Source of the DNA: Fragilariopsis cylindrus CCMP1102
Lineage: Eukaryota > Bacillariophyta > Bacillariophyceae > Bacillariales > Bacillariaceae
NCBI GenBank assembly: GCA_900095095.1
Contig: FMBT01000367.1
Coordinates: forward strand, 1-64,000
Length of the DNA stretch: 64,000 nt
Direction of reading: 5' to 3'
Position numbers and translations under genes: made by a program. The notes below the pieces were generated by a model. It was not told the DNA's origin. It was given only the letters and a program-made list of their open reading frames with translations, and did no database searches. This document shows, piece by piece, positions 4,364 to 45,738 of the stretch (its first letter is position 1; each line of letters starts with the position of its first letter).

Positions 4364-6601
4364 TTACTTTGGTACATCCCCAAATCGATCATCAATCTCC
4401 TGTATCTCTACTTCCAGTACTGTCTTTGTTCTACTAGTTGATCTTTTCTTACCCATTTTCATGTACAGTTTCGATATCATGTGATTCATTTTATTCTTTG
4501 TTTTCTTTGTCGGTACTACTCTGCTGGATGATCTTTTCTTTCTTAGGCATTTGAACACGTTTGTTAATGGATTGTCGGAGTATTTCTTTGGTTTCTTCTG
4601 TTTTGTGTTTATCCTTGACACAGTAGTCTTTGCTGGTTTGTTTGCAGTGAAGTGTTTCCAAATTGGTTTGCTGTTTTCTTTAGCTAGTTCTTTCACTCGT
4701 TTCATGCTATGATCTATTACTGGTTTCCATCTGTTTATCCATTTCTTCAGTTGTTGGTTTGTATCATCAAGTCGGTTTTTGATTGTTTCATCGTATATCT
4801 TCAGTTCATCTTCCGGTAGAACCATCTCTCTCAGTGTATAGTAGTGAGTGACCTTTTTGATGAGGGAATCATATTCTGCTGCTATTCTGCCTCCCAATAC
4901 TGGTTTGTTTCTATCGATGCATCTATCCATCCAGATTTCTTGTATTATGGGTATGATTGCTTGGAAGAAGGCATGGAACTCTTCTGTTTTATTCTTCTTC
5001 TTGGTATTCTTTGCTTCTTTTCTTTTCTTGTTCCTTCTTGCTCTTGCGTACGCTCTTGGGTCCGACAATTTCTTTCTGATTATGAAAGCTTTCTGTTGTA
5101 TTTTCCATTGTTTTGAGAACTTTCCTCTGAGTAAATTGTCCCAACCTATTACCACCTGTTCATCAATAAGTAGTGTGTACCTTTTGAATATTTGCTCTTT
5201 GTCCACATCCTCTTGACCTCTGAGCCTTAGCATTGCATTTGATACTGATTCTCCATTAAAGTATGTCATTAATCCTTCCTTCAGTATATCGCAGAGTCTT
5301 GGGTCGACCGTGTTTCTTAATAGATTGATTTGGTTGATGACCTTCTTTCGTAGGCTTCTTCTTTGTTCACATTGAAATATATGGTCATCATCTTCTTTGT
5401 CCCATCCACATGATGCGCATTTCTTGACATGGAAGTGATCCCTTTTGTGAACCCTTTCTCCTGTTGGTAGTTTCTTGATACAGTATTTGTGCATCCACTG
5501 TATTCCTTTTGTGGACAAATATTTCTTATACACTGGTCGAAATATATCCCAGTCAATTAGATCAAATATATTGTCACTCCACTTGAATCTGGTACAGTAG
5601 TATTTTCGTAGTGGTTTTAGTTGTATTACTTCTCTTACTGTTCTTTTGAAATCTCTTGTTATTGTTCTTCCTTCTAGGTGAAACTGTATGCATGTGTTTG
5701 GGTCCATTGGTACAATAGGCTTTTCTTGTAATCTCTTCAGTCCTATCGTTGCCAATTCATCTGCTTCCGAGTTGAGGTATGCATTCAGTGGCATTTCTTT
5801 TTCATCAAAGACCATATCATCTTGGTGACTCTTCACCCAGCTTAGTTTTGGATATGTTCGGAATCTCTTCAATGTCCTACTTAATGCTGACAGTACGTCC
5901 CATTCCGAATCTAATACTGTCTTCAGTGGAGCCGTTGGGTATTCATGATATGCTTCTAATTTCTTTATCATACTTAGGCTGTCAGTGTATACCTGTATTT
6001 TTCCTCTTGCTGGTTCATCACATTGTAGTTGCTGATCATAATATTCTGTTATCAGTTGTAAGCACTTCGCCGCTGCCAGTAGCGCGCATATTTCAGATCT
6101 GAATGATAGTGGATCATTTCCTGATGGTTGTCCATAGCAAGATAGCAGTATTGTTCCATCTTCATCTGCAACTACAAATCCCAGAGATCCTTTGAGTGGT
6201 ATTGCTCCTCCATCTGTTGCTATGTTGTATTTTCTTGGTGATTTTATGAGTTCGTAAACTTCAAATGGTGTTGTTAGAAAGTTTATTTCTGCATAGTACT
6301 GTGACACGTGTTCTTCTTGTGACTGTAGATGTTGCATAATCGTTTTGCTCTCTGTGTCTTCATTCTCCTCTTTTTGTCTTACTTGGTGGTGATTTGCTAT
6401 TCTCCATCCGTCCTCTGTGTCCATTACATCCGCTGGTGTTGCATCATTCGGTAGTCTTTCCACATTGTCTTCTGGTACATAGTTGTATGTATCGTTGTCT
6501 GCTATCATGTGGCAGTCATATAGTATTCTCCATTGGTGTGCCATTCTTTTCTGTAGCTCCTGTATAGTACGTCCGTTTCTTCTGAGTAATAGAATGGCCA
6601 C
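4364..6601 (-). CDS. LINE RNase H / zinc-cluster protein
   Basis: A 745-codon frame that begins inside the end of the RT frame. An RNase H domain spans about residues 124-290, with catalytic Asp130 (ATDGG), Glu170 (RSEIC), Asp207 (YTDSL) and Asp281 (SEADELA), plus the SWVKSHQDD segment typical of non-LTR RNases H. A C-x2-C-x8-H-x3-C cluster (C395, C398, H407, C411; CASCGWDKEDDDHIFQC) resembles the cluster at the C-terminus of many LINE polyproteins. The remaining ~330 residues are basic and unrecognised. The frame is -1 relative to the RT frame. The RT stop TGA overlaps an ATG as ATGA at 6508-6505, so translation may restart there, losing only the first 31 residues. RNase H would remove template RNA during second-strand synthesis. 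Confidence 0.88.
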   Translation of the reverse strand: MAILLLRRNGRTIQELQKRMAHQWRILYDCHMIADNDTYNYVPEDNVERLPNDATPADVMDTEDGWRIANHHQVRQKEENEDTESKTIMQHLQSQEEHVSQYYAEINFLTTPFEVYELIKSPRKYNIATDGGAIPLKGSLGFVVADEDGTILLSCYGQPSGNDPLSFRSEICALLAAAKCLQLITEYYDQQLQCDEPARGKIQVYTDSLSMIKKLEAYHEYPTAPLKTVLDSEWDVLSALSRTLKRFRTYPKLSWVKSHQDDMVFDEKEMPLNAYLNSEADELATIGLKRLQEKPIVPMDPNTCIQFHLEGRTITRDFKRTVREVIQLKPLRKYYCTRFKWSDNIFDLIDWDIFRPVYKKYLSTKGIQWMHKYCIKKLPTGERVHKRDHFHVKKCASCGWDKEDDDHIFQCEQRRSLRKKVINQINLLRNTVDPRLCDILKEGLMTYFNGESVSNAMLRLRGQEDVDKEQIFKRYTLLIDEQVVIGWDNLLRGKFSKQWKIQQKAFIIRKKLSDPRAYARARRNKKRKEAKNTKKKNKTEEFHAFFQAIIPIIQEIWMDRCIDRNKPVLGGRIAAEYDSLIKKVTHYYTLREMVLPEDELKIYDETIKNRLDDTNQQLKKWINRWKPVIDHSMKRVKELAKENSKPIWKHFTANKPAKTTVSRINTKQKKPKKYSDNPLTNVFKCLRKKRSSSRVVPTKKTKNKMNHMISKLYMKMGKKRSTSRTKTVLEVEIQEIDDRFGDVPK

Positions 6602-9600
6602 AGTCGTTCTGAATCATTGGCTTGTACTAGCCAATCGCCTAGTGGCTTCGTCAGTCTCATCCGTTGTCCTATCTCACCTCTCGTTCTTCCTTCTTCTCTA
6701 TACTTTTTCTCATATTTTACTACTTCTGTATGATTAAGTTCCTCTTCATCATCATCTTCATACAGTATTTTGTAGTATTTGCCTGTATTGTTGATTACAA
6801 TGCCTCTGTACGATACTCCAATCCAGTATTTGAGTATGAAAGTCCCTATGCTAACTTTATCTATTGCTTCTTTTCGCTGTTGGAGTCCCTCATTTTCTAT
6901 GAGAATATCCCTATTTTCCAGTGAGGTTGCTTTGTTTCTTGGTTCAGTGAATAGATTAAGTCGTGAGCTGGAGCCGGGTTCGGATCCTGGTTCAGTTGTT
7001 TGTGGGTCAATTCTTGGTTCAAATAGGCTAGATTTAGTTGATTCCGGGTTTGAACCTTGGTTCATGCTTGGTTTGCATATCGTCTTCAGGAATTTTCTCC
7101 ACACTGTCCACGATTGATCGCCAGGTCTCTCTTGTATTATTTCCTTCAGTTTAGATGTACATTGTCGTATGCTTCTTTCACCTTTTGCTATGGATGGTAT
7201 TATGAACGCTCCATCAGCTGTGCATAGATCTGATAATCTTTTTACTTGTAGATAACTCTTACAGTAGTAAATTTGGTTGATTTCTGCATCCGTGTAGTGT
7301 TTCAGTTGCTTTCTATCCAATGTCTGCGCCGCCTCTGGTGCACATACTACATCCATTATGTACGTATCTCCTATTCTTTCATCTATTGATTCTGGTATGC
7401 ATTCTATTTCTAGACTAGCTCTGTGTTTTGCCAGAAATCTTCTTATGTGTACATAATAATGTCCTTCAAGATGAGGTGCTCTTATCCCTGGATACTGTAG
7501 CAGCGGCTTTGATAGTCCTGACGCATGTTGGAACGTTCGAAGAAAGATTGTTGCTACTTGTTTTCCGTACCCTGGCGTTCTTAGTTGTCTAATTAGATTC
7601 TGTATTGCATCTAGTCCTTGTTCAATTCTGAGATCATTGCATCCTATCCCTCCATATGATCTTGGCCCAAATACTAACACATGTGCATGTGTCCGTGCTA
7701 TCCTTAGCTTATTCATCAGTGTGGGTATGTATTTCTTCTGCAGGTCGTGTAGTTGCGTTTGACTTAGGTGGCACATGCTCAGTGGATATCCTACACTGCT
7801 TTGAAACACTGCTGTATAGTGTACCCATGCACATTTTGGTGACATCGCTGAGCAAGCTAGCTTTCTCTGATGTGTACTTGATGTCTTTGTCATTTTAACA
7901 TGTTGCTGTGTCTGATTTTTACTTATTCCCTGTTCTGTTCCTAGGCTGCGATATGTCTTGTACGCTGATATTGGTCGTATCACTACTTCTTTGTTGTACA
8001 ATCTGTCTTTTAGCGTTATCGTTAAGGTTGGGTCTACTGGTGCTATCACTGGTGCTCCGTCTAAGCTGAAGTGTGTTGCTATGACTTGAGCAAAACACTT
8101 CTCTAGATTTAGCGCTCCCCCCGTCGCTCTTAGCAAATCATTCCATAATTGTGCGTCATGTTGTGTCCTCTTCATAATGTCCTTTGTGGTTTCCCAGTCT
8201 TCTCCATTGTTTGTGATGTTATTATCGTCTACAAATCCTAAAATTCCTACTATAGTAGTATATAGTCTCCATGGATCCTCATACCTACATCCATGCCCAA
8301 ATTTGTCATGAATATCAAACAGTTTCGATACTAGTTTGCCCCATCCCTGAGCTGATACACCGCTGCCTTGACCCGATCCGAATGCTGGTGAGTCATCTGA
8401 ATGATGATACGTTTCTTTAGATATTCCTATCCCTGTTTTGATTGCATATCTTGCTATTTCTAATAGTGCTCCTATTATTGTTGTTAGTTTCTTTGGCATT
8501 CCAAATGACTGTAAGCACAAATTGAGCAAATGTACTAGTATCCTATCAAAACATGCTGTTGCATCGTTATTGAATTTGACTAGCGTTCTTCTTGTTATCA
8601 TTGCCAATTCTGTCTGCGACACGTCCACAAATACTGGGTCGATGGCTCTTCTTGTTGGTCGACACCCATATACCCCTTTGTTGATGAGAAACTTGTCCTC
8701 ACAGTGTTGGTCAAATTCTCTGAAGAATATTGAGAACAGTAAATTCAAATCACATTCATATAAGTGTATCACTCTTAGTCTGTGTATTCTTGGTATTCCA
8801 GATTCTTTGGCAAGCATACATGTGATGATGTACTCCCACCTTTTGTATACGTGTTCATTATCGTATGCTGTTTGTAGCATGATTGCATGTAGATTGATTA
8901 GCTCTTCACGTATTTCTTCCAATCGTTCTCTATCCTTCTTATTTTTCGCTTTCAGTGGTTGAAATAGTGCATGGAAATGTCCCAGATGCCTGCCTGATGG
9001 TGATGTGCTTGTACGTTCCTTCCATCTCCTGTACTTCTCCATCATTTTCTCTGCTGTTATCTCTATTTTCAGTTCTTCCGAATTTCTTTTCATTGATGTT
9101 AAGAGAAATCTTGACCACTCATCGTCTGTTATATCACTTGGATCATCCGTTCCTTCAAGGATTTGTTTAGATCTAATCGTGTTTGCCCCAAATCCTATTA
9201 TTTTTATCACTTGTGGATTTGCCAATGGTGTGAATTCTGCTTGCCTGAAGTGTCGTATATTTCGCTGTAGTATTACTTGTTCAATAGTTGGTCCGTCTGT
9301 GATTACTTGGTATTCTAGTTCAATTCCTTCTTTCGGTAGTGGTACTAGTATTGCTGATATTCCTCCTGGACAGTTCATCTTCGATGGTAACTCTGACATC
9401 ATTTCTTTTGTATCTCTTGCCCTTTGAAATATTTGTGCTGCACGTTTAGCGTCCATTTCTGGATTCATTGCTACAAAGGCTGCCTCTTGTTCATCTTCTA
9501 TTGCTGTTGTATCTTTTCGTCGCTGCTCAATCAGTTGTCTACATTTCTTCTGTGCCTGTCTTAAAGCTATCATTGCATCCTTTATTTCTGGGGGTAGTTC

Positions 9601-11073
9601 TATTTCTTTCTTTAGTAATCTTTGCTTTTGACGTATTTGTGTACTGCAATCGATGTTGGTCCTCAGACTTGATAAGTGTACTCGCAGTATATTGGCTGTT
9701 GTCATTACTTCATTCACTTCCTTTGACCATGGTTCCCGATGAAAGATTCTGCATTGATCTTCTGCTTCTAGCATTCCCCTTGTTATTGCTCTGTCTAGTT
9801 TTTCTAATTTATCCTTTTCATACCAGTATCGTTGCTCCTTTACTTTCCTGTATATGTCTCTTTCTTTTAGATAGTCGTGTAGGTACTCAACATATTTTGT
9901 TATATTACTTGGATGGGTTCCTCTGATTGCTCTTGATGATGCTGAGAAGATAGATGGTAGCTTTCTGTCAAATAAGCCTGCTTGTGCAAAGTCCACAAAG
10001 TACCCCCTGTGATCCGATGCAATTCGGCTGTGGAATGGTTCATATCCACTTCTTAATATGTGTTTTACTAATCTTGGTGTTACAAATACATAATCAAGTC
10101 GTTTTATTCCTCTTGTGTATGTTGATATTTCTACTGTTCCATGTTGGTGTTCATGTGCATCAGTTAGGCAACCAGCAGATAATACCTTCAGCATTCCCCT
10201 TGGGTCATCTCCTACTAGCTCGTTGAAATCTCCTGTTAGTATGATATCTTTGTCTTCACTCCTAGCTTTCTTTACTAGTGCTGTTAGATCATCAATAAAG
10301 ATTTGTTTTGGATCTGGTTCTCTGATGTTATTGAGTTTATACAGTGCTGTTTGTTGATTGAATAATGTGTCTTCTCCTACTTTCGCATTCTTGTACTGTG
10401 ATACATTGTATGCTGTGAGTACCATTATTTCTTTCGTATCTTTTCCTATTAGCGTATACCCACACCACCTTCCGTACGGGTCAGTTATTGTTTCTCTAAT
10501 TCTTCCTACTAGTGATCCAGTGACGCCTACTAGATTTCCTCCAGGTTTCGTGAAGCTTAGTACTGGTGCTGTTGATGATGAGTGCACTATTTTGCAATCT
10601 TCGTTGTTGTTTCTCCACATTCTTTGTTTAGAAAGTCTTAATGCTCTTCTTGCTAGTGCATTCGATTCATCACCATGTGTTTCATTAAATGTAAATATAT
10701 CAGCTCCTGCTTGTTTTATTTCTTTGAACGCTGAGTCTAAGCCTATCCCTTCTCTATCGAATATTCCACTAACATTCTGACAGTATACCCTTACATATGG
10801 TGTATCATTATCAATTGCTATGTCATCGCATACATGACCGAAAGGTGTATTTTCTTTTGTGATTTTCATTCTAGTTGTTGTTGGTTCTTCCTCCGTGCTA
10901 ATATTATCATTCTTCTTTTCTTCTTCTATTCCTTCTTCTTCTTCATCTTCTTGTTCTGTTTCTTCTTCTTCTTGTTCATCATCACTTGGTATAAAATAGA
11001 GTTCATAATCTTTGTTTTCTTCCACTTCTTCTTGCTTCTCTTTGTTATTATTTTCTTCTATTTCTTCTTCCAT
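6505..11073 (-). CDS. LINE endonuclease-reverse transcriptase
   Basis: 1,522 residues. The N-terminus is Glu-rich (1-75). An exonuclease-endonuclease-phosphatase (AP-type) domain covers about 92-365, with QN (N100), FNETH (E131), AYN (N223), TGDFNE (D282, N284), RLDYVF (D327) and SDH (353-355). A linker with coiled-coil character follows. The RT domain lies about 730-1010: CMLAKESG, RLRVIHL, NNDATACFD (D837), GSGQGSG (899-905) and FVDD (947-950, replacing the usual YADD/FADD). GGALNLEKC follows, as in RT motif D/E. The endonuclease would nick the target and the RT would copy the RNA from the nick. The start ATG at 11073 comes after a 13-codon open lead-in. All key catalytic residues appear present. 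Confidence 0.92.
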   Translation of the reverse strand: MEEEIEENNNKEKQEEVEENKDYELYFIPSDDEQEEEETEQEDEEEEGIEEEKKNDNISTEEEPTTTRMKITKENTPFGHVCDDIAIDNDTPYVRVYCQNVSGIFDREGIGLDSAFKEIKQAGADIFTFNETHGDESNALARRALRLSKQRMWRNNNEDCKIVHSSSTAPVLSFTKPGGNLVGVTGSLVGRIRETITDPYGRWCGYTLIGKDTKEIMVLTAYNVSQYKNAKVGEDTLFNQQTALYKLNNIREPDPKQIFIDDLTALVKKARSEDKDIILTGDFNELVGDDPRGMLKVLSAGCLTDAHEHQHGTVEISTYTRGIKRLDYVFVTPRLVKHILRSGYEPFHSRIASDHRGYFVDFAQAGLFDRKLPSIFSASSRAIRGTHPSNITKYVEYLHDYLKERDIYRKVKEQRYWYEKDKLEKLDRAITRGMLEAEDQCRIFHREPWSKEVNEVMTTANILRVHLSSLRTNIDCSTQIRQKQRLLKKEIELPPEIKDAMIALRQAQKKCRQLIEQRRKDTTAIEDEQEAAFVAMNPEMDAKRAAQIFQRARDTKEMMSELPSKMNCPGGISAILVPLPKEGIELEYQVITDGPTIEQVILQRNIRHFRQAEFTPLANPQVIKIIGFGANTIRSKQILEGTDDPSDITDDEWSRFLLTSMKRNSEELKIEITAEKMMEKYRRWKERTSTSPSGRHLGHFHALFQPLKAKNKKDRERLEEIREELINLHAIMLQTAYDNEHVYKRWEYIITCMLAKESGIPRIHRLRVIHLYECDLNLLFSIFFREFDQHCEDKFLINKGVYGCRPTRRAIDPVFVDVSQTELAMITRRTLVKFNNDATACFDRILVHLLNLCLQSFGMPKKLTTIIGALLEIARYAIKTGIGISKETYHHSDDSPAFGSGQGSGVSAQGWGKLVSKLFDIHDKFGHGCRYEDPWRLYTTIVGILGFVDDNNITNNGEDWETTKDIMKRTQHDAQLWNDLLRATGGALNLEKCFAQVIATHFSLDGAPVIAPVDPTLTITLKDRLYNKEVVIRPISAYKTYRSLGTEQGISKNQTQQHVKMTKTSSTHQRKLACSAMSPKCAWVHYTAVFQSSVGYPLSMCHLSQTQLHDLQKKYIPTLMNKLRIARTHAHVLVFGPRSYGGIGCNDLRIEQGLDAIQNLIRQLRTPGYGKQVATIFLRTFQHASGLSKPLLQYPGIRAPHLEGHYYVHIRRFLAKHRASLEIECIPESIDERIGDTYIMDVVCAPEAAQTLDRKQLKHYTDAEINQIYYCKSYLQVKRLSDLCTADGAFIIPSIAKGERSIRQCTSKLKEIIQERPGDQSWTVWRKFLKTICKPSMNQGSNPESTKSSLFEPRIDPQTTEPGSEPGSSSRLNLFTEPRNKATSLENRDILIENEGLQQRKEAIDKVSIGTFILKYWIGVSYRGIVINNTGKYYKILYEDDDEEELNHTEVVKYEKKYREEGRTRGEIGQRMRLTKPLGDWLVQANDSERLWPFYYSEETDVLYRSYRKEWHTNGEYYMTAT

Positions 11074-11102
11074 TGCTTCTTCGTTGACCGTTTCAACTAG
11101 TA

Positions 11103-11675
11103 CTATAGGCGCCCCTCACTTTTGTTGAGGTCATCCCTATTTTCTAGTGTGGTTTGATTATCGAGATTAAGAGGCTCTACCTCATTTTCTTTGAGGGTGA
11201 TCCTACTGTTTCTTGTACTTGTATCTGTTTCCTTTTCTGTTTCATCGCTATCTTCATCATCTGAGTCTTGGGTTGTTTCGTTGATAAGACTTGTTATACT
11301 GGAGTTATCTTGTACTAATGTACGAATTCTTTTAATCTTTGTTATTGCCTCTTTCAATAAATTTAATCTTGTTTCTAGTGATGGTGGGTCATCCATTTTT
11401 CTAATGCTTGTTGGTTTGTTTGTGTTTGCTCTTTGTTTCAATATTTTTGTTGGTATGAACGCTGTTGTTGTTCTTGATAATTGTTCTATTATGTTGTTTG
11501 ATTCGCCACCTGTTGTATCGCTTTCCAAGGTTTTGCCAGGCTTATTGTTTGTATTGTTTGATTGTTCTTTTGTGTGTCTATTGATATTTTCTTGAGTTCT
11601 TTCTTTCGTATTTTCTTTTGTTTTGTCATCATGTCGTTTCGATAGAAAGGCATTTAATGGGCCTTTATTGTTGAT
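11103..11675 (-). CDS. LINE acidic linker frame (no own ATG)
   Basis: This frame is open from 11675 to the stop at 11103, about 190 codons, but has no in-frame ATG near its beginning. It overlaps the last codons of the coiled-coil frame (stop at 11665) and meets the open lead-in of the endonuclease-RT frame by about 12 nt. The content is Lys/Glu/Asn/Thr-rich, ending in an acidic run (DSDDEDSDETEKETD). It could be reached by a +1 shift from the previous frame, or be the detached N- or C-terminus of a neighbour. No domain recognised. Confidence 0.5.
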   Translation of the reverse strand: MNNKGPLNAFLSKRHDDKTKENTKERTQENINRHTKEQSNNTNNKPGKTLESDTTGGESNNIIEQLSRTTTAFIPTKILKQRANTNKPTSIRKMDDPPSLETRLNLLKEAITKIKRIRTLVQDNSSITSLINETTQDSDDEDSDETEKETDTSTRNSRITLKENEVEPLNLDNQTTLENRDDLNKSEGRL

Positions 11676-34300: not shown

Positions 34301-35340
34301 GTGTAGTACATAATAAACAATATTTTTGTAAGAAATATTTTGTGTCCCCAAATACATTTTATTTTTGTGGCCCCCCTATGCTCTTTTGAGGGATTATTAA
34401 CTACAGTTACACTTTTTAGGGATTTAAAAAATAGTTAACTAAAAACACTAGTTCTCAAGGAAAACCCCCGATTAGAAAAGTAAATGTGTGTTGCCTCTAG
34501 TGTAGTGCATGAACGGAGATATATATTTTTTTTAAACAGCCAGGTACACGTGCTTAATAATTTCAACGGACTAAAAGTAAATGTGCGTAGGTACCTACTA
34601 CTAATGATGTGTATTATGCCAAACACAGTACAGTACTTACAAGCTTGTCGTAATAAATAAAAATGTTCACATACTGTATTTTACTAAGTACCTTATCCAT
34701 CAACGCGCCATATTATTATTTGATTTAAAAGTTTTTTTAATTCGGAGATGAAAAAATAAAAAATGAGACTATATAAATCGATGGGTGTTGGTGATGTTGC
34801 ACACGCATCGCCAACAAAAATAATGACGATAGTAAAGATGAATGTAGCACGCTTATCTTGTCATTCTTTTTACGCACGATCAAATCTTTTTAAATAAATT
34901 AGAGAAGCACAAGTCAAGAAACAACAATATGGATATATTATGGCATGGCTATTACATCACCAACCAAAGGCGAGCATTGCTGGGCTTGCTACAGTAATGA
35001 TAGGGTATTTTATCGATTGTTCGGTCGTCGTCTCGAAACAATTAATAATTGTAAGCCAGATATACTTCGAAGTAGCACACCTACATTGTATCATCATCAA
35101 TCTCTCCCATCACGTGTCTGTTATCATCACTTTTCATCACATCAGAGAATACTGACTTGATTTGATCTGATTTGATTTCATTTGATTTGATTCCTCTCTA
35201 TATCTAATATTGCTTTATAAGGCGACGACAACGACGACAACGACAACGACGACGATTATAACGGACAGAGAAACGATTATAACGAACTGAAAATAAAAGC
35301 GAACAGAACCGAACCGAACCGAAACGTAAGAAAAGGCATT
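34301..35340. other. Intergenic spacer upstream of the MATE-PDZ gene
   Basis: AT-rich. One small plus-strand frame (34945-35160, 71 codons, CWACYS near its start) has an ATG but no recognised domain, and is left undecided. Short (TTTGATTTGAT)-like and (ACGACGACA)n runs precede the start of the next gene. Confidence 0.5.
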
Positions 35341-38300
35341 ATGGGTAGTAGTAGTAATGACAGCAATATTGCGTCCTTCGTTTTACATGGAGCTGTTCAT
35401 CGTTATCTTGGTGGTGGTGATAATGATGATGACAATAACAATAGCAATGACAATGACAATGGCAATGGCAACGGCAATAATAACAATGGCAATAATAACA
35501 ATGGCAACTACAACAATAACAATGGCAACTACAACAATAACAGTGGTAGTAGTTATAATGAACAATATACAACAACAGGATTTAATGTATGGTTATTTAC
35601 TGGTACAGCCTTATTTTGTATGATCATGTTTTTATATATCCTGCTTCGTATTAAATATCATCGTAGACGTACTAATAATGAAAATCGTATTAAATTAGGT
35701 GGTGGTAGTGGAAATAGTGGTGGAAATAGTCGTGGTAGTAGTCGTGGTGGTAGTCGTGGTGGTAGTACTAGTAAAACTAGTAGTAGTAGTAGTAGTAATA
35801 AAAAAAGACAACAAATAACCGATGAGGAAATATATAAATATGTCTTACCAATCAAAAAAGAAAATTCCTACAATGAAGCATTTTATATTATTAAAAATGA
35901 TATTGAAACCAAACGGATCTTAAAACTATGTAAACCATTTTGGTTTGATGCCTTGATTGCATCCATTTGTGATATCATTTCCGCTTCCTTAATTGGACGT
36001 GGTTTAGGTGTTGATGCCTTAGCCATTTATTATATTGTCGGCGTACCCACTACCTTTACCTTAACATTAATTGAATCGATCTTAAGTACCATATCGACCT
36101 TAGGTGGACAAAGTATTGGTGTGGGATCGTATAAATTAACTGGACAATATTGTCAAATTAGTATCGTATTGGTAAGTAGAACAGTACAATATACACTACA
36201 CTTCTACAGACGCAATATACCTAATTCTTACTCCTACTCCTATATATACATATATTCCCTTTTTCCTTCTTCTTTTCATTCTACAATCTTATTCTACAAT
36301 CTTATTCACACAATCTCGCAACAACAAATAACAATAACAAATAATCAAAATCAAAATCAAAAAATATCAAACTTTAAAAAAAAAAAGTATACAATATTAT
36401 ATATCCCACATGCCATATTATGGATCATCTATTTAAAACCAACATTACGTTGGTTTGCACCAAATTTAAATGATGATATTATTGATGAAGGGTATAAATA
36501 TTTTTTAGTATCATTAGTATATAGTTATGTCGAAGCATTTTCTACCGTAATACATAGTTTATTAGAAGTAACAGATCATGCGGGGTATGGGATGAAGTCC
36601 GGTGTGGCACATAATATTATCTCAGTGATTGGGTTTTTTCTGTACTTAGAGTATAATAGATATCATAATGTATCCTCGTCATTAGTGATTGTGAATATTA
36701 TCTGGACAATACTGGTGATTGTCTTTCTTATTATTGATTTATTGGTAATTAAAAAGAAAAAATGGTTTGATGATTTTTGGAAAGGTAAACAAAACACACA
36801 ATTAATTGAAAGAATTGGTCTTCGTTTTTGTTTTTTTTTGTTTCGTTTTGTATCGTCTACAATTACAGTTACAGCACATAATACATTGTAATCTCATCTC
36901 ATCTCACCATTTTTTCCCTATCCTTGTGTTCGTTTCTTTCTTTTTACCTTGATGACGTCATCGTCGTCGTCATCGTCGTCGTCCTCATTTCATATCTGTT
37001 TGTCTTATAATCATATACATTATATTTCATAACTATTTCATAACTATAAATATAGGTATGCTACGATCGGTAGCAATGAAATATTGGAATGTTGTTTGGC
37101 TTGTATTGAAAACAGCTGCACCTATTTCTGTTGGGAATGTACTATTAACAGTTGAATGGGAATTATTAGCGATATTTGCTGCAACTTTAGGTGGGAATCA
37201 AGTTGCTGCATGGGGGATTGGTACGTTGAGGTTTATATTTCAATGTTTGCGTTATCTCAGATTCTTATGTTGTTGTTTTTGACTTGTATTTGTACTGAAA
37301 CTCGCCTCACCTCACCGCGCCGCCACACACTCACAACTTACTCTATCTTTTACTAAATTACTTACTCCCCATTTTATTTTTATCCTATAAAAGTTGGTAG
37401 TATTTGGGGTGTATTAGAATATGCAACAGATTGTGTCGCCTCTGCTGGTGAAATTCGTGTCGCCAAGTTACTCGGTAATGGCAATCCGGTAAGTTTTAGT
37501 CTTAGTCTTAGTTTTAGTTCTGTTTGTGTGCGTGTGCGTGTGCGTGTACTTATGCGTGTGTGTGATTGGTACTGTACTGTACTATACTGTATCTCACATT
37601 CACAATTGCGTTCATTCATTCTTCTCTTTCTTGTTTATCCACTTTAAATCACCAAAACTGAACTTGCACTTGCACTTGCAAATCGATGCTTGACTTGCAG
37701 AGATTAGCAAAATTATCAGCATACAAATGTTTATTTTTAGGTAATGCATTCGCTACAGTTATGAGTGTAATATTTGTAATCGGTATACCATTCTTGCCAA
37801 GGTACGAACGAACGAACGAACATATCACAATCTTTGATCTTGATTCTTTTGTGTCTTCTTTCTCTAAATTGATACTACATTTGCTTAACACTAACACCTA
37901 ACCTATTATTACCGTACAACTATTTTTAATTCTACACATATTCACTTATTATCTTTTCTTTCTAAAAGTATATTTACTGATGATGACGAACTAAAACAAA
38001 ATGTTGCTATGGTATTACCATATTGTGCCATTGGTAATTTAACATTAACTCTTGGTAGTTTATCATGGACATTAGTCGGTGCACAAGGACGATACAATGT
38101 TGCAACATTCCATGGCTGTGTTGGAAGGTACGTCATGTTCACGTTTTACGTTACGTATACCTCAGGTTTACGTTTTACGTAATACTACGCTCGTTCAATT
38201 GTAGTCCCTACCTGTGCCACGCATTCTCATTTTCGATTACTCTCTCTCTCTCTTTCGATTTCATCCTGCAGTCTATTCGTAACGATTCCTTGTGCTTGTG

Positions 38301-39628
38301 TTTCAATATTTTATTTTAAATGGGGACTACCAAGTCTGGCTGCTAGTGTTGTTATCGGATATATGGTTTCTGGTGCGTTCAATTCTGTTACATTGCTGTT
38401 GAGTGATTGGGAATATATTTCCTATCGTGTTATGATTCGGAACGGCGCCACCGAACCCGTAGAGGATGACGAGGATGATGACGAGGACAGCGACGTCGAC
38501 GTTGGCAACGTTGGCAACGATGCTGGAGTTAATAAAAGATGGAATTTATTACAATACATGCGGGGTGGCAATAATAACAATGAAACATATAACGATGACG
38601 AAAAAAATGTAAGCTTTATTAGTGTCAAATCGAATCAGAAGAAGTATGCCGATGCTGATGCCGATGATGCTGATGATGCTGACGATGATGGGTCAACAGG
38701 AACAAATAACACCGAAATCACGTCTGGTGTTATTAAGAAGTCATCCAGTCGGTGGTTAACCTTTGGTAGGGACCATGAAGAAAACGAATTACGGAGAGTT
38801 GTTTTAGGTCCAGGCAAACTTGGTTATACAATCCAATCAACAAAGGTAAACTATATATATGTTGCACATGACCTCGGTTGTATCTCATTTTGTTAAAATT
38901 GCTTCGTTTTGTCAGTTTTGTCAGTTATCACTCACAATTTTCCTAATTTAACTGCTTCTTTTTTTAAATCGCCAAGAATGGACCGATGGTCGTAGGGTCC
39001 AGTGATGAATATTCAAATTTGGACGGAACTGCTGCTGTTGCAGCAAGGACAAATAAAAGTGGCGTATCATATCGTGGATATCAAGCAAAGAATTTAACTG
39101 GACAATTATTCAATGGCGATATTATTGTTGAAATTGATAAGACACGGTGGTACGTATTATATGCTTTGTTATATGATAGATTCGATTCGATTAGATTAGA
39201 TTCGATTAGATTGATGAAATGCAATTAAAATCCTAATATCATCGATTGATTCGTTATAATATAATGCTGTTATTTGCATATTGAGATTTATTTTCGACTC
39301 AACTCGCTCACTCACTCATCTCAACTCGCATTCTTCCATTTTCATTTCCCTATATTCTTGTACTAGTGATAAAATGAGTGGAAAGGATGTTAAAAAATTA
39401 CTCAATACGAAGAGTAAACAACGTCGTCGAACTTTGATTGTGTCCCATCGCGAAGGTACAGATTTAGGCGCAGTATACCAACCAGGAATTTATGGTGCTG
39501 CTGTTCTTGCAGCATTATTAAAAACCAAAGGGAATGATGTTGACGACGAGCGTGGTACAGAGAAAGAATTTGATGACGATGGTGTTCATGGTTACTCCAA
39601 TATGTCAAATCTTGGCTGGTTCGCTTAA
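35341..39628 (+). CDS. MATE-family transporter with C-terminal PDZ domain, 9 exons
   Basis: Inferred exons: 35341-36171, 36388-36784, 37056-37220, 37394-37488, 37701-37801, 37969-38127, 38272-38845, 38977-39149 and 39367-39628; total 2,757 nt, 918 residues, frame kept throughout, GTAAGT/GTACGT-type donors. N-terminus: Asn/Asp-rich stretch, one extra membrane segment (FNVWLFTGTALFCMIMFLYIL), then a Gly/Ser/Arg linker. The MATE core (~190-640) has CKPFWFDALIASICDIISAS, LGGQSIGVGSYK, KTAAPISVGNVLLT, ATLGGNQVAAWGI and GEIRVAKLLGNG. MATE proteins export organic cations or metabolites against Na+ or H+. After an acidic loop comes a PDZ-like domain (~757-860): LGPGKLGYTI, GQLFNGDIIVEID, MSGKDVKKLL, RRTLIV. 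PDZ domains bind C-terminal peptides. The fusion is unusual; membrane and substrate are unknown. Confidence 0.85.
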
Positions 39629-40580
39629 AAAAAAAGTGTAAAACATAGCATCGTTCGATTTGATTTATTAAATACGTTTTCCTATTATAATAACTGTCAT
39701 CTTAATGTATAAAATTACTGAAGTACGTGTATTCTTCATCTATTTCATAGATATATATCATTCAGATCAGACGAGAAAGCGTAGTGTTTTCGAAACGCTA
39801 GTTCAATAATTTCTCCTCTCCTTCGAGCAATCAGGTATTGAAAACATGAAACGATTTATGTAAGCATTCAGTCAGTCAGATATTTACCACCGTGATAATT
39901 GTTTCCCACCCTTTACGCCGCTGCTACATATTAATTTGAAAATCGTATAGTATAAGATATATTATACTGCTGCACTAAGCCTAGGACTAGCACGTACGAG
40001 CATTATTATATACCTTAATTCAACACTTTAAAAAAAAACATCATTACTTTCAATTAACAATAAAATCACTTTGAGCCTCGGATTGGGAACAACTCAGGCG
40101 CGATTTCAACAATTTCATCAATTTGAATTTGAAAGCAAGAATGATGAAACAACCTAACGTTAGGCGCGATTTCTTTCACCTAATTTATTTTTACGATCCT
40201 GTTTTTGAATACGGTCGAAAAGTACATCTAATTGCACTGTATAATTAAAATATTTGTTATGCAAGTAATAAGAGTAAATACCTTATTGTTTAGTGTTCTC
40301 GTCACATTGTTTGGATTATTTCGTTACTACTAGTACAATTAATTGTAAAAGAGAACAACAGAAAATAAAAACTTCACAGAAATGTTATCACTATTCCAAT
40401 CCCGTCGTGTCAGCATGTTCCGAACCGAAGGATGTGTTAAAAAAAAAGGTTCACCGATTACGATAAAAGCGCCTATTAACTCACAAAATATAATTATAAT
40501 ATTGCACTATACGTGGAACAGCAACATACATCGTCGCAATAGAACAAAAGTTCTTCTACCATCCCCCATTGTTGACTAAA
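39629..40580. other. Intergenic spacer
   Basis: 3' region of the MATE-PDZ gene and upstream region of the next gene. AT-rich, with no gene recognised; a short frame at 40382-40579 has no support. Confidence 0.5.
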
Positions 40581-41444
40581 ATGAAGAAGCAAGTAAGATT
40601 TCGAGAACGAGTACTTGTATATCCTTGTAGTGACGAATCTTCATCATACAGGATATTAGATAATAATAATAGTAATAATAATAACAAGGACGAGCGTACT
40701 ACTGAAACTACTCGTCGACGGATGCAGACTAACGTTTGCTGCGAGACGAATAATGTAGTGGTGAAAGAAGATGTGATGTGTAAAACAGTTAGCAGTAATG
40801 AGCAACGTCATTATTATCGACGATGTCTTAGTGCTCCTGAACAACTACAGAAGCAGCAAATTCACAAGCATGATGACGACCCAAGAGGATTGTTTGCGGT
40901 GTCTCCTCTACTACTAGATCGTTCGGATGCATTTTTGTCGCCATCAGCATCGCCATCATCGTCATCCGTATCACAAAAACAAATAGGGAAGCTATCACTG
41001 ACATTATCATCAAACACTACTACCGCTTCTGCTGATATTGCAGCTACTGCAGCTAGTACGCCGCCAGTCAAATTGTCAGAAGGTTTACGTCAGCCATTAC
41101 TAGTAGAACTACTAGAACGAAAGGAAAACAACAGCATCAACAACAACGTTACTCATTTTCCTGTTCATAAGAAGAGTGCTGAATCCATTAATACGACTAC
41201 TGTTCCAATAATTCATGTTGTTGAAAATTATGATGATCCTTGTCGCATACGACCGTTAGTTGGTCACACTTCTTCCCAACATCATCCTCATCCTCATGAT
41301 CGTCGTCGTCGTCCTAACGATACACCTCCAGTGATGCCTGTGCGGAAGCCATTCTCGACATCAAAATCAAAATCAACTACGGGAATGGCCTTATTTGAAT
41401 CTACAGTATTACAGAGCAAGATCAAGAATAAACGAAAACGATAG
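40581..41444 (+). CDS. Hypothetical protein with V-x-F motif
   Basis: 287 residues from the ATG at 40581 (the frame is open a little further upstream without a better start). The N-terminus reads KKQVRFRERVLVYPCSDE. The KKQVRF part fits the R/K-x-V-x-F docking motif for protein phosphatase 1, but a V-x-F block followed by a short beta-like stretch also marks many uncharacterised diatom proteins, as I recall them. The rest is Asn-, Ser- and His-rich and probably disordered; the C-terminus is basic (KIKNKRKR), a possible nuclear signal. Single exon. Function unknown. Confidence 0.6.
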   Translation: MKKQVRFRERVLVYPCSDESSSYRILDNNNSNNNNKDERTTETTRRRMQTNVCCETNNVVVKEDVMCKTVSSNEQRHYYRRCLSAPEQLQKQQIHKHDDDPRGLFAVSPLLLDRSDAFLSPSASPSSSSVSQKQIGKLSLTLSSNTTTASADIAATAASTPPVKLSEGLRQPLLVELLERKENNSINNNVTHFPVHKKSAESINTTTVPIIHVVENYDDPCRIRPLVGHTSSQHHPHPHDRRRRPNDTPPVMPVRKPFSTSKSKSTTGMALFESTVLQSKIKNKRKR

Positions 41445-42602
41445 ATATTATAATAGTATATATAAACGATGTTTAGTAGTTATTATTATTTCTATTAGTA
41501 TACAATTAATATATAGTCTTATCATCATATATCTGTTAACAGTAGACGTGCCGTATCGTACTACATGTCTTATAAGATACAACTAGTAGCTAGTCTAGAC
41601 CCCGAATGGGGTGGATAAAAGCGTTTAACATATACAATTCATGCAAGGGAACAGTACGATTTTAAGTATGTCTGTTCGGAAATATCTGTGGTGACATGAG
41701 CAATAGAAGAGCGAAGTTATTGACGTATCAATAGACGTGCAGAAGGTGGGAGATACTAAAAGAATTGGCTAAGTTGCTCCTCTTCGCGGGCTAGGATGTT
41801 GCCCCTAGAAATTCCACAATTGTGTGTTGAAAACTTTGCTTACTCCCCCCTTATAGCAAACTTTTAGGTCGTATTATCAAACAATTATGGATATAATCGC
41901 ACATCTTTCATCTATCAACTGAACAGCCAATATGCGGTCATCTTCTATCAACTAGCTGACGCTATCAACTGAGCACTTTTCGCGCGCTTTCTACCATCAC
42001 CTATTGAATTTACTTAATGAATTTTTCACAGACCCTATTACAGTATGACGCACAGTCCATCCATATGGGAAATACAAAATAAATACGTGATTTGCTTCGC
42101 AAAAGCACACCCACCCTACTGTACAGTATCTGTTTCACATCGTTCTCTCTTTACTCCTACCATAAAACCATACATCATTATCTTCACTACAATGCCATTT
42201 ACTTTTCCATCAGGATTGGGGTTCCGGGGGGAGGGCAGACTCACTAGTTTCCATTTACTATTGTACCCAATCATAATTCGATAATTTTCTCCCCAGGCAA
42301 TTTCACCCAAAACTCCACACCTGACAATCAAGTTACAGTTTGCATAGCATAATATTACTGGTCCTTTTATTGATCTACTAGAAGGGAACCCATTACCATG
42401 GGATGTATTTGACAAGTTTTATTTACTTTAAATAATTAATTTGCATGTGTGCTTTGTACCTAACCACTAAGAACCAGATCTACTTTATCAGTGAGGTCTG
42501 TCCATTTCTTCACATATTAAAAACAGTTGATACAGTGATTCACACAAGTTAGTTTGAAAATCCCTGGATTGCAATCTAGGGTGGAAAGTATTTCCCAGAG
42601 TC
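41445..42602. other. Intergenic spacer
   Basis: No well-supported gene. A 99-codon minus frame at 42116-42415 sits in somewhat GC-richer sequence but has no recognised domain. Confidence 0.45.
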
Positions 42603-42870
42603 GGTTGGTTCAACCACTAGGACTGGGGTCCAGTTGTGGATCGATCGGCTCATTGGAATAGAATTCCATGCCGGGTGGGGTGGGAGGTATTTTAAACTTT
42701 CTTAGTCTACTAGGTTGTGGTTTCCCCCCACTTTATTCTAGACGTGTATTAGAGTCGATTGGTTTGACGGCTAGGACTGGGGTCCAGTTGTGGATCGATC
42801 AACTCATTGGAATAATATTCCATGCCGGGTGGATGGGAGGTATTTTAAACTTTCTTAATCTATATTTGAG
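42603..42870 (+). repeat. ~157-bp tandem duplication
   Basis: ACTGGGGTCCAGTTGTGGAT and GGGAGGTATTTTAAACTTTC each occur twice (about 42621/42778 and 42681/42835). Copies are about 85-90% identical by eye. Noncoding. Confidence 0.75.
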
Positions 42871-43011
42871 GTTGTAATTTTGGTAGCTCAGTTGTCCCAC
42901 GAATAAAACAGAGTTGTGAGCCTTTCGGGCTGTTTTCTTTTGGTAGGTATTTTTCTTTCATTTGCTGGATCTTTTCATTTTTCATATCTTCTTTTTCAAA
43001 TCATCTCTATT

Positions 43012-43086
43012 CAGATCTTCAGTTTCCTATTTCGCGCTACCAGTTTCGCGCTACCAGCAGGAGGGGCATGCGCTTCACTTATAAGT
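43012..43086 (-). repeat. Left member of an inverted repeat pair flanking a gene
   Basis: Contains AGATCTTCAG, TTTCGCGCTACCAG (twice) and GGGGCATGCGCTTCACTTAT. Its reverse complement matches 45779-45848 with a few gaps. Confidence 0.75.
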
Positions 43087-43568
43087 AGGTTCAAAGCTTG
43101 GTTCTAGTTGGTTAATTGAAATTGAAATCAAAGGGTTGATTAGTTAAAGCGCTGGAGTACAAGTACTAGTACAAAAAAAAATTGAAATTCTTAACGAAAC
43201 TATAAAAACGCACAGTCAATAAATAAATGACTTCCTTGCATCCTATAAATTAGGAATTACGTACGTGTATTGTTCCGCAGTTTGATCTACACGGACAAAC
43301 GATAATGATGTATCATTAACTAATTGATTGAAGAATGATAAAACTTCAAAATTACAGTTGTTTATTGTTGTTTTGTTGTTTAGCCAGATCCTTCGCTCCA
43401 TATTCTACAATAGTAGTAATTTAAACAACCACGATTTGAACAACCACAATTGTATAAAACGCAAAGCATCACATCACAAACACATTCAACCACAACTGTT
43501 ATACAATACAATACGGAACGCATCCAGATAATATTATATTATACTATAAGTACTATCAAATAGAGATC

Positions 43569-45738
43569 ATGGTTCCATCATTATTATCGAGACCCTTGTC
43601 GTTGTCGCCATCGTTCCTACTGCTGACGTTAGCGGTACTATGTAGCTATGAATCAAATTCAAATATATTCGTTACAGCTCGAATCAATAATCATAATAGT
43701 GATAGTGATAATAATAATGATGGTCTGAATAATATCGATGATAAAACGATACCTCGTGATTTGTCTGACGGAACAACAATGACAACTACACCAATTGGTG
43801 GATTAGGTGTATTATGGGATATGGATTTTCCAACATTTGAATTTGAAGCAATTGCAATAAAAAATAATAGCATTGAGAATAGTGATTGGAATAGTAAATT
43901 TCGTCTAACGTATACAGTGAATGATATGATTGAAGATACAATGTTTAGTGCTACGTGGTGGACAGCACCAAATTGTAAGGCCGGTGGTGTACCATTAGAA
44001 CAATATGGTATTGGTTATGAATTTGAATATGAAAGTGATGGCCAGCCACCAGGTGATGGTTCATCAACACGTGAATTTACTGTTGCATTCCGTTCTGCAC
44101 CAAGTAAGTGTTATTGCTTTATTGCCAATTTTTTTTGCTTTGTACAATTATTATTGCTATTGTTATTGTTGCATTATTACACCACACCGGATCGGATCGG
44201 ATCGGACCGAACCGAACCGTACACTTCGCACAAAAATTACACTACATTATTACTGTAATCACCCCCTTTGGCAAATAATCGAATCAATCTCCACGTATTC
44301 CTCACACACCCTCTTTTTCCTTTCATCTTACAACGCAACACAACACAACACAACACACACGCACGCACACACACACAAATATTTTACTACGCTAACTTTA
44401 ACTCCATAAAATAAATAGGTGTAAGGGAAAATTTGGATGTTTATACAGAGGATTATTCAAAAGGTGATGCAAGACGATATGCAGTATTGGAAGTATGTGT
44501 CCGTGCATCACTCAAGACATTATCTGGTGTTGAAATTAATTATATTGAAAGTTTATTAACATTAACTTATGACTTTCAAGGTGGTTTTTTTGTTATAGAC
44601 TCATTTGATGTATTACCACCAATTGGTACGTACTATATCCTATACTATATTATGTTATACTACAGTATACATGATTCTGATGCATGTGTAATCGTGTCAA
44701 CAATGAAACAATGCCTCGCTTCGCCTCGATCGCCGTATCATCTCACACCATCCCTTTTTATGCTTCTTAATCCTCGATTTACACTACACTGTACTGCACT
44801 ATACTACCCTACACTATACGTAACTAACAGCTCAGGTAATGAATTTAGAATTGGGTGATATTGTAAAATCATATTTTTGCATACCTGGTAACAAACGTAT
44901 TACACAAGGAACTGTTATACAAATTTGTATTGAACCATTACCATCCGCAATATTAGATGGTTTTCGAATAACAGCTGTTGAAAGTTTGTTCTATGAAAAA
45001 CCAACTGCTGAATTATATCAAGATGCTGTTATTAATCGTAAACAAACAACAACAAATGAATTAAGTGTATTAATTTGTCCTGTTGGTGCCAAACAATGTA
45101 TAGTCCAGACGATGTTGTACGCTCGATTTTATGCATTTGAGGAAGAAATTGTTGCTCGAGGTACTGTTACATTTCAATTTGGTGAAAATGATGGTACTAT
45201 TGGTGCTGTTACTGATGATGATGATGGAAATCCTGCTTGTGTTGGTATGGAATGTAATAATAATGCTGAAGATCAAGATTTAGATCGAGTAACTGATGAT
45301 GATAGTATTATTTATATCGATGATAAATTTGTTGACACTGATGATGTGATTATTGATACTGATCCTCCTAGTAATCCTAATCGTCGTCAACTTCAAGTTC
45401 AAGTTCCACGTAGTCGACGTCACTTACAACAAAGTCAAACTGGTATTGATCTAAATGAGTTACCCGCTGTACTTCCCATATCTGAATTTGCATTACCATT
45501 ACTAATTTATGCTGATGATGATGGCAATGGAACAAATAGTTATAATACTAATGCGTCCACAAAATATGGTTTCGGTAAACGAAATACACAATGTTTTTTA
45601 GGATATTGTGGTTTATCATATTCCTTAGGTGCAACGATTGGTATTGGATTTTTATTACTTTTGAATTGTATTGTTATTTTTATCATGATACGTCAATTTC
45701 CATACTTTCAAGGGAAACGATTTTATATTCTATCGTAA
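43569..45738 (+). CDS. Signal-peptide, single-TM protein of unknown function, 3 exons
   Basis: Inferred exons: 43569-44103, 44419-44625 and 44831-45738 (549 residues); both introns are phase 1. The third exon starts after ...CTAACAG at 44830; the alternative AG five bases downstream would hit a stop at once. Residues 1-25 are a hydrophobic leader. The lumenal/extracellular part has segments EVCVRASLKTLSG, LTYDFQGGFFVIDSFD and ITQGTVIQICIEPLP, which recall a large uncharacterised diatom family (from memory). An Asp-rich stretch follows, then a dibasic-rich stretch (NRRQLQ, RSRRHLQ), then a membrane span (LGATIGIGFLLLLNCIVIFI) about 30 residues from the end. Likely a type I membrane protein of the secretory route or cell surface. 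Confidence 0.75.

Follow-up and report, generated by a model that had tools for sequence, protein, structure and literature searches.

One gene of this diatom encodes a MATE-family carrier core and a PDZ-like domain in a single reading frame of nine exons. The first-pass annotation had described this frame, and the observation was confirmed in the genomic sequence by a shared exon 7, the splice sites of a second copy, mostly synonymous change between the copies and PDZ profiles built within the genome. We favour, with fair but not high confidence, a MATE-family carrier that has an extra helix at the N-terminus and, at the C-terminus, a PDZ domain that most likely holds or clusters it.

The gene lies on the forward strand of the window (the whole stretch of 64,000 nucleotides analysed here). 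The coordinates given for it at first pass were exact: the ATG starts at 35341, and the last base of the TAA stop codon is at 39628. The coding sequence has 2757 nt for 918 aa (Table 1). Splice sites were picked by hand from genomic DNA and verified by the reading frame. GT..AG borders were found at all eight introns, which measure 131–271 nt. Intron 1 (216 nt) has no in-frame stop. Its retention as coding sequence was discarded and it was read as non-coding, because intron 1 of the second copy has 290 nt and breaks the frame.

Table 1. Features of the window and of the MATE-PDZ protein. Positions are window coordinates or residues; substitutions were counted between the window and the second copy.
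Feature	Position	Strand	Content	Synonymous	Non-synonymous	dN/dS
Probable non-LTR retroelement	4367..11115	-	Two long frames
Exon 1	35341..36171	+	Asn-rich N-terminus, extra N-terminal helix (residues 83–101), low-complexity linker, first MATE helices
Exon 2	36388..36784	+	Remainder of first MATE half; 397 nt here and in second copy
Exon 3	37056..37220	+	Second MATE half begins; MatE match at residues 432–590
Exon 4	37394..37488	+	Second MATE half
Exon 5	37701..37801	+	Second MATE half
Exon 6	37969..38127	+	Second MATE half
Exon 7	38272..38845	+	Last MATE helices, acidic linker, first PDZ strands (GPGKLGYTIQSTK)
Exon 8	38977..39149	+	PDZ middle with ~20-residue insertion, then LFNGDIIVEID
Exon 9	39367..39628	+	Helix and final strand of the PDZ (DKMSGKDVKKLLNTK..RRTLIVSH), then the C-terminal tail (last residues GWFA) and stop codon
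314-codon open frame	40500..41444	+	Just downstream of the MATE-PDZ gene
N-terminal tail	residues 1–75			5	10	0.374
Segment	residues 76–110			0	0	
First linker	residues 111–155			1.5	5.5	0.868
MATE	residues 156–655			29	2	0.019
Second linker	residues 656–752			5	0	0
PDZ	residues 753–866		114 codons	6	3	0.141
C-terminal end	residues 867–918		52 codons	1	0	

Two further features of the window were recorded. Of the two long frames that probably form a non-LTR retroelement, one contains an endonuclease/exonuclease domain (36.3 bits) and the other a weak zf-RVT match (20.7 bits; cut-off 27.5). The 314-codon frame had no Pfam match; it also aligns with the second copy, at 94.8% identity across 767 bases within 40582–41444 and with indels.

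The MATE-PDZ gene itself is on contig C401, and the in-genome searches covered an assembly of 67.9 Mb. The second copy was found at the start of contig C648. Two blocks in the same order align to positions 34677–43811 of the window (9000 bases compared), with identities of 88.6% and 94.1% and an overlap of ~140 bases on C648. Every splice site was kept in this copy. Only two exons differed in length, exon 1 by -27 nt and exon 7 by +12 nt; all eight introns did, seven of them by non-multiples of three.

The second copy is probably the other allele, because several contigs were paired with equal scores and because a silicon transporter is found on both C401 and C648; a recent duplicate is also conceivable. 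The frames of the two silicon transporters (C401:140811-142664, 715 codons; C648:135375-137207, 712 codons) have opposite relative orientations, a hint of an inversion between the haplotypes. Silicon transporters (PF03842) also mark the genome as that of a diatom: they scored up to 757 bits in it, and one match, under the family cut-off, was found among 14 control genomes.

Overall, 47.5 synonymous and 20.5 non-synonymous changes separate the two copies (dN/dS 0.112). According to the counts per segment, the MATE core, the second linker and the PDZ domain are constrained, and the N-terminal low-complexity parts much less so. At the level of these substitutions, purifying selection was shown both for the MATE core and for the PDZ domain. 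The three non-synonymous changes in the PDZ domain sit at residues 799 and 802, inside the insertion described below.

These data also bear on whether two adjacent genes, the upstream one for a MATE protein and the other for a PDZ protein, were wrongly joined. The gene structure is known from genomic DNA alone, which leaves room for such an error. However, the boundary between the domains falls within exon 7. The last MATE helices, the acidic linker and the first PDZ strands share its open frame, so that two genes become very unlikely. Moreover, changes in the linker were exclusively synonymous and those in the PDZ domain were mostly so, and introns 7 and 8 measure only 131 and 217 nt. We consider a wrong join extremely improbable and rejected it on the basis of exon 7 and the second copy.

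The carrier part was readily recognised. MatE (PF01554) matched two stretches of the protein with 81 bits in Pfam (cut-off 24.9). The NCBIfam model TIGR00797 covered residues 205–605 (model positions 7–395 of 396) but reached just 97.5 of the 147.4 bits required; this library is meant for bacterial and archaeal annotation. A MATE core is expected to have 12 helices in two bundles; in the hydropathy profile, several segments of the core merge or overlap. A PDB search with the core returned just three sequences at E ≤ 0.001 (E 2.3e-5 to 3.1e-5), namely plant DETOXIFICATION (7dqk and 5y50) and human MATE1 (9r10). One scan of viral contigs with the core found no relative. To our knowledge, neither plant DETOXIFICATION nor human MATE1 carries a PDZ domain. 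Human MATE1 has a thirteenth helix at its C-terminus, whereas the extra helix is N-terminal here.

Residues 753–866 are, by homology, a divergent PDZ domain. Direct Pfam scores did not reach the cut-offs: PDZ_6 gave 13.8 bits with the full protein and 17.6 bits with the fragment (cut-off 27), and PDZ gave 13.6 bits with the fragment (cut-off 23.2). Besides the second copy, a search with the window PDZ as a single sequence gave weak matches only: C525 (E 0.007), C196 (E 0.009), C715 (E 0.087), C223 (E 0.17) and C293 (E 6.6). C196 and C293 themselves lie above the PDZ cut-off of Pfam, one with 30.3 and the other with 29.6 bits; C525 and C223 match PDZ models, none of them above a cut-off. Identity to the window PDZ was 35% for C293, 33% for C196 and 29% for C525.

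A profile of four of these domains (C293, C196, C525 and C223; window excluded) scored 44.7 bits with the full protein (E 1.1e-12 among 1967 sequences). With residues 753–866 it scored 53.1 bits, and the best shuffle reached 8.5 bits. For a profile of eight other PDZ domains of the genome, again excluding the window, the values were 54.2 and 6.5 bits. Both controls used 2000 shuffles of residues 753–866, of which 1642 (four sequences) and 1689 (eight sequences) returned a score. Searched against the PDB, the eight-sequence profile found 41 sequences at E ≤ 0.001, with PDZ chains of GRIP, InaD-like and syntenin proteins on top; the best match was 1p1d (GRIP1, E 2.4e-9), and 9v90 (syntenin-1) had an E value of 7.5e-7. 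When the window was included in the profile, 238 PDB sequences were found at E ≤ 0.1, and we take the best 60 of them, by name or from general knowledge, all to bear PDZ domains. Homology to accepted PDZ domains thus runs through the in-genome relatives and spans the whole domain, the insertion aside.

This insertion is defined with respect to the in-genome relatives: the profile match consists of two collinear pieces with ~20 extra residues (roughly 793–811) between them. An unspliced mini-intron was set aside as its origin because the real introns measure 131–271 nt.

PDZ domains hold the carboxylate of a peptide with a loop of the pattern x-hydrophobic-G-hydrophobic. The putative loop KLGY fits this pattern, as do the loops of seven of the eight relatives (the exception is KLHI in C196), and the GD motif is also kept. 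Class I PDZ domains have a His at the start of the peptide-binding helix. The MATE-PDZ protein has Gly at this position, where the eight relatives have Ala, Val, Ile or Cys. By this rule, a class I ligand would be unlikely because Gly stands in place of His.

The same Gly, the insertion and the low Pfam scores would fit a decayed or repurposed PDZ relic that has lost ligand binding. On the other hand, the 114 codons of the domain show twice as many synonymous as non-synonymous changes between the copies, with the latter confined to the insertion, and both the loop and the GD motif were retained. We regard a relic as rather unlikely and prefer a domain that would still bind peptides.

The domain could also act in cis. 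It would then bind the protein's own C-terminus (..GWFA) or that of a neighbouring copy, and would regulate or oligomerise the carrier instead of anchoring it. The last 52 codons are without amino-acid change between the copies, and a PDZ domain without the class I His might accept W at P-2 with A at P0. However, these codons contain a single synonymous change, so their conservation is barely testable, and the related PDZ proteins on C293, C196, C525 and C223 have C-terminal ends other than ..GWFA. Self-binding is possible; as a replacement for anchoring, we judge it distinctly unlikely. Anchoring to a partner would be the simplest reading.

In C293, C196 and C525, the PDZ domain is C-terminal in a long frame, with a hydrophobic segment far upstream (judged by eye). 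These proteins belong to the same PDZ subfamily as the MATE-PDZ protein, but no 12-helix carrier is present in their visible frames.

A search of the genome with the MATE core gave at least six further clear loci (C90, C83, C265, C324, C742 and C55) and a weak seventh on C554 (20.4 bits). The additional N-terminal membrane segment noted at first pass is present (residues 83–101, mean hydropathy 2.15). In all six paralogs inspected, residues 1–200 of the first frame likewise include a hydrophobic segment of 19 residues (mean hydropathy 2.06–3.03), and a long stretch of low complexity comes after it. The helix is therefore not peculiar to the MATE-PDZ gene, and it was dropped as a special feature of the fusion. 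If the far end of this helix is cytosolic, positive charge is expected past it. A net positive charge was found in four of seven proteins (window, C265, C742 and C55) and not in C90, C83 and C324.

The expectation that MATE proteins end after the membrane part did not hold in this genome, as three of the six paralogs bear another C-terminal module. C265, C742 and C83 (L043, L045 and L042) carry a repeat of ~60 residues (..ELP..V..AA..LGYT...WD..), one unit of which comes after the last MATE helix in the same open frame. This LGYT..WD repeat had 29 matches in the genome, many of them on other frames, and none on C90, C55 or C324. In Pfam, the repeat tail of C265 exceeded the cut-off for PF10123 (28.5 bits), and the other matches were under their cut-offs; all look spurious. 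C90 (L041) has a WW-like stretch in the linker before the MATE core (15.9 bits, under the cut-off of 26.9).

Among the loci compared, a fusion to a PDZ domain was seen in the MATE-PDZ gene and its second copy. Run against the frames at the six paralogs, the four-sequence PDZ profile matched nothing on the gene strand. Its lone match, with 10.5 bits, was at C742 on the other strand; in the same run, two exon fragments of the second copy, serving as positive control, scored 13.5 and 13.1 bits. Comparing positions of the other MATE and PDZ matches of the genome gave no same-strand PDZ close downstream of a MATE match. The comparison is a weak one for PDZ domains split by introns, as it also misses the window's own. 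The nearest same-strand PDZ (C90:583898) is ~6.8 kb away, and a frame of at least 513 codons on the other strand lies in between. On C84/C622, an opposite-strand PDZ lies ~4 kb from a MATE match.

No record of a MATE-PDZ protein was found in the literature within scope, which left out most subscription papers. For MATE transporter and PDZ domain, the sole match was a fungal genome study (title level), and for PDZ domain, silica deposition and diatom nothing was found. PDZ is not mentioned in the available main text of PMC9546453 or in the accessible part of PMC8970042; in that of PMC3019232 it is mentioned twice, in a kinase table. Since our search covered this genome and not other diatoms, the architecture may already be present, unremarked, in diatom gene catalogues.

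MATE proteins use H+ or Na+ antiport to export organic cations or metabolites, and their standard topology is a 12-helix core with both ends in the cytosol. Applied here, the N-terminus of the protein would be outside and both ends of the core would be cytosolic, so that the acidic linker and the PDZ domain should face the cytosol. There, the PDZ domain would bind a partner by a short peptide, and this binding would hold or cluster the carrier at a particular place in the membrane. As for transport, the core would presumably export organic cations or metabolites via H+ or Na+ antiport.

In our best reading, these genes form a diatom MATE clade in which the paralogs have different cytosolic tails, and the PDZ tail likely serves to anchor the carrier. 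More tentatively, and with less than even confidence, the clade may be a distinct one that combines the extra N-terminal helix with exchangeable cytosolic modules (PDZ, the LGY-W repeats in three paralogs and perhaps a WW-like module in a fourth). Such modules might form a docking code per paralog for different sites, e.g. silica-forming or plastid compartment membranes. If a paralog group swaps tails, the localisation of diatom MATE proteins would become testable gene by gene.

GRIP1 and syntenin-1, whose PDZ domains rank high among the PDB matches of the diatom profile without the window, are soluble animal scaffolds in which the PDZ is not known to be fused to a transporter. Animal carriers are placed by separate PDZ scaffolds (PDZK1/NHERF), which grip the tail of the carrier. 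As proposed for the MATE-PDZ protein, these carriers are positioned through a PDZ domain. The difference is in the place of the domain: in the PDZK1/NHERF systems the peptide is on the carrier and the PDZ on the scaffold, whereas in the MATE-PDZ protein the PDZ is on the carrier. From the built-in domain it would seem that the carrier supplies an intracellular attachment point of its own. A carrier with its own PDZ would reverse the animal arrangement and offer a direct handle on what positions diatom exporters.
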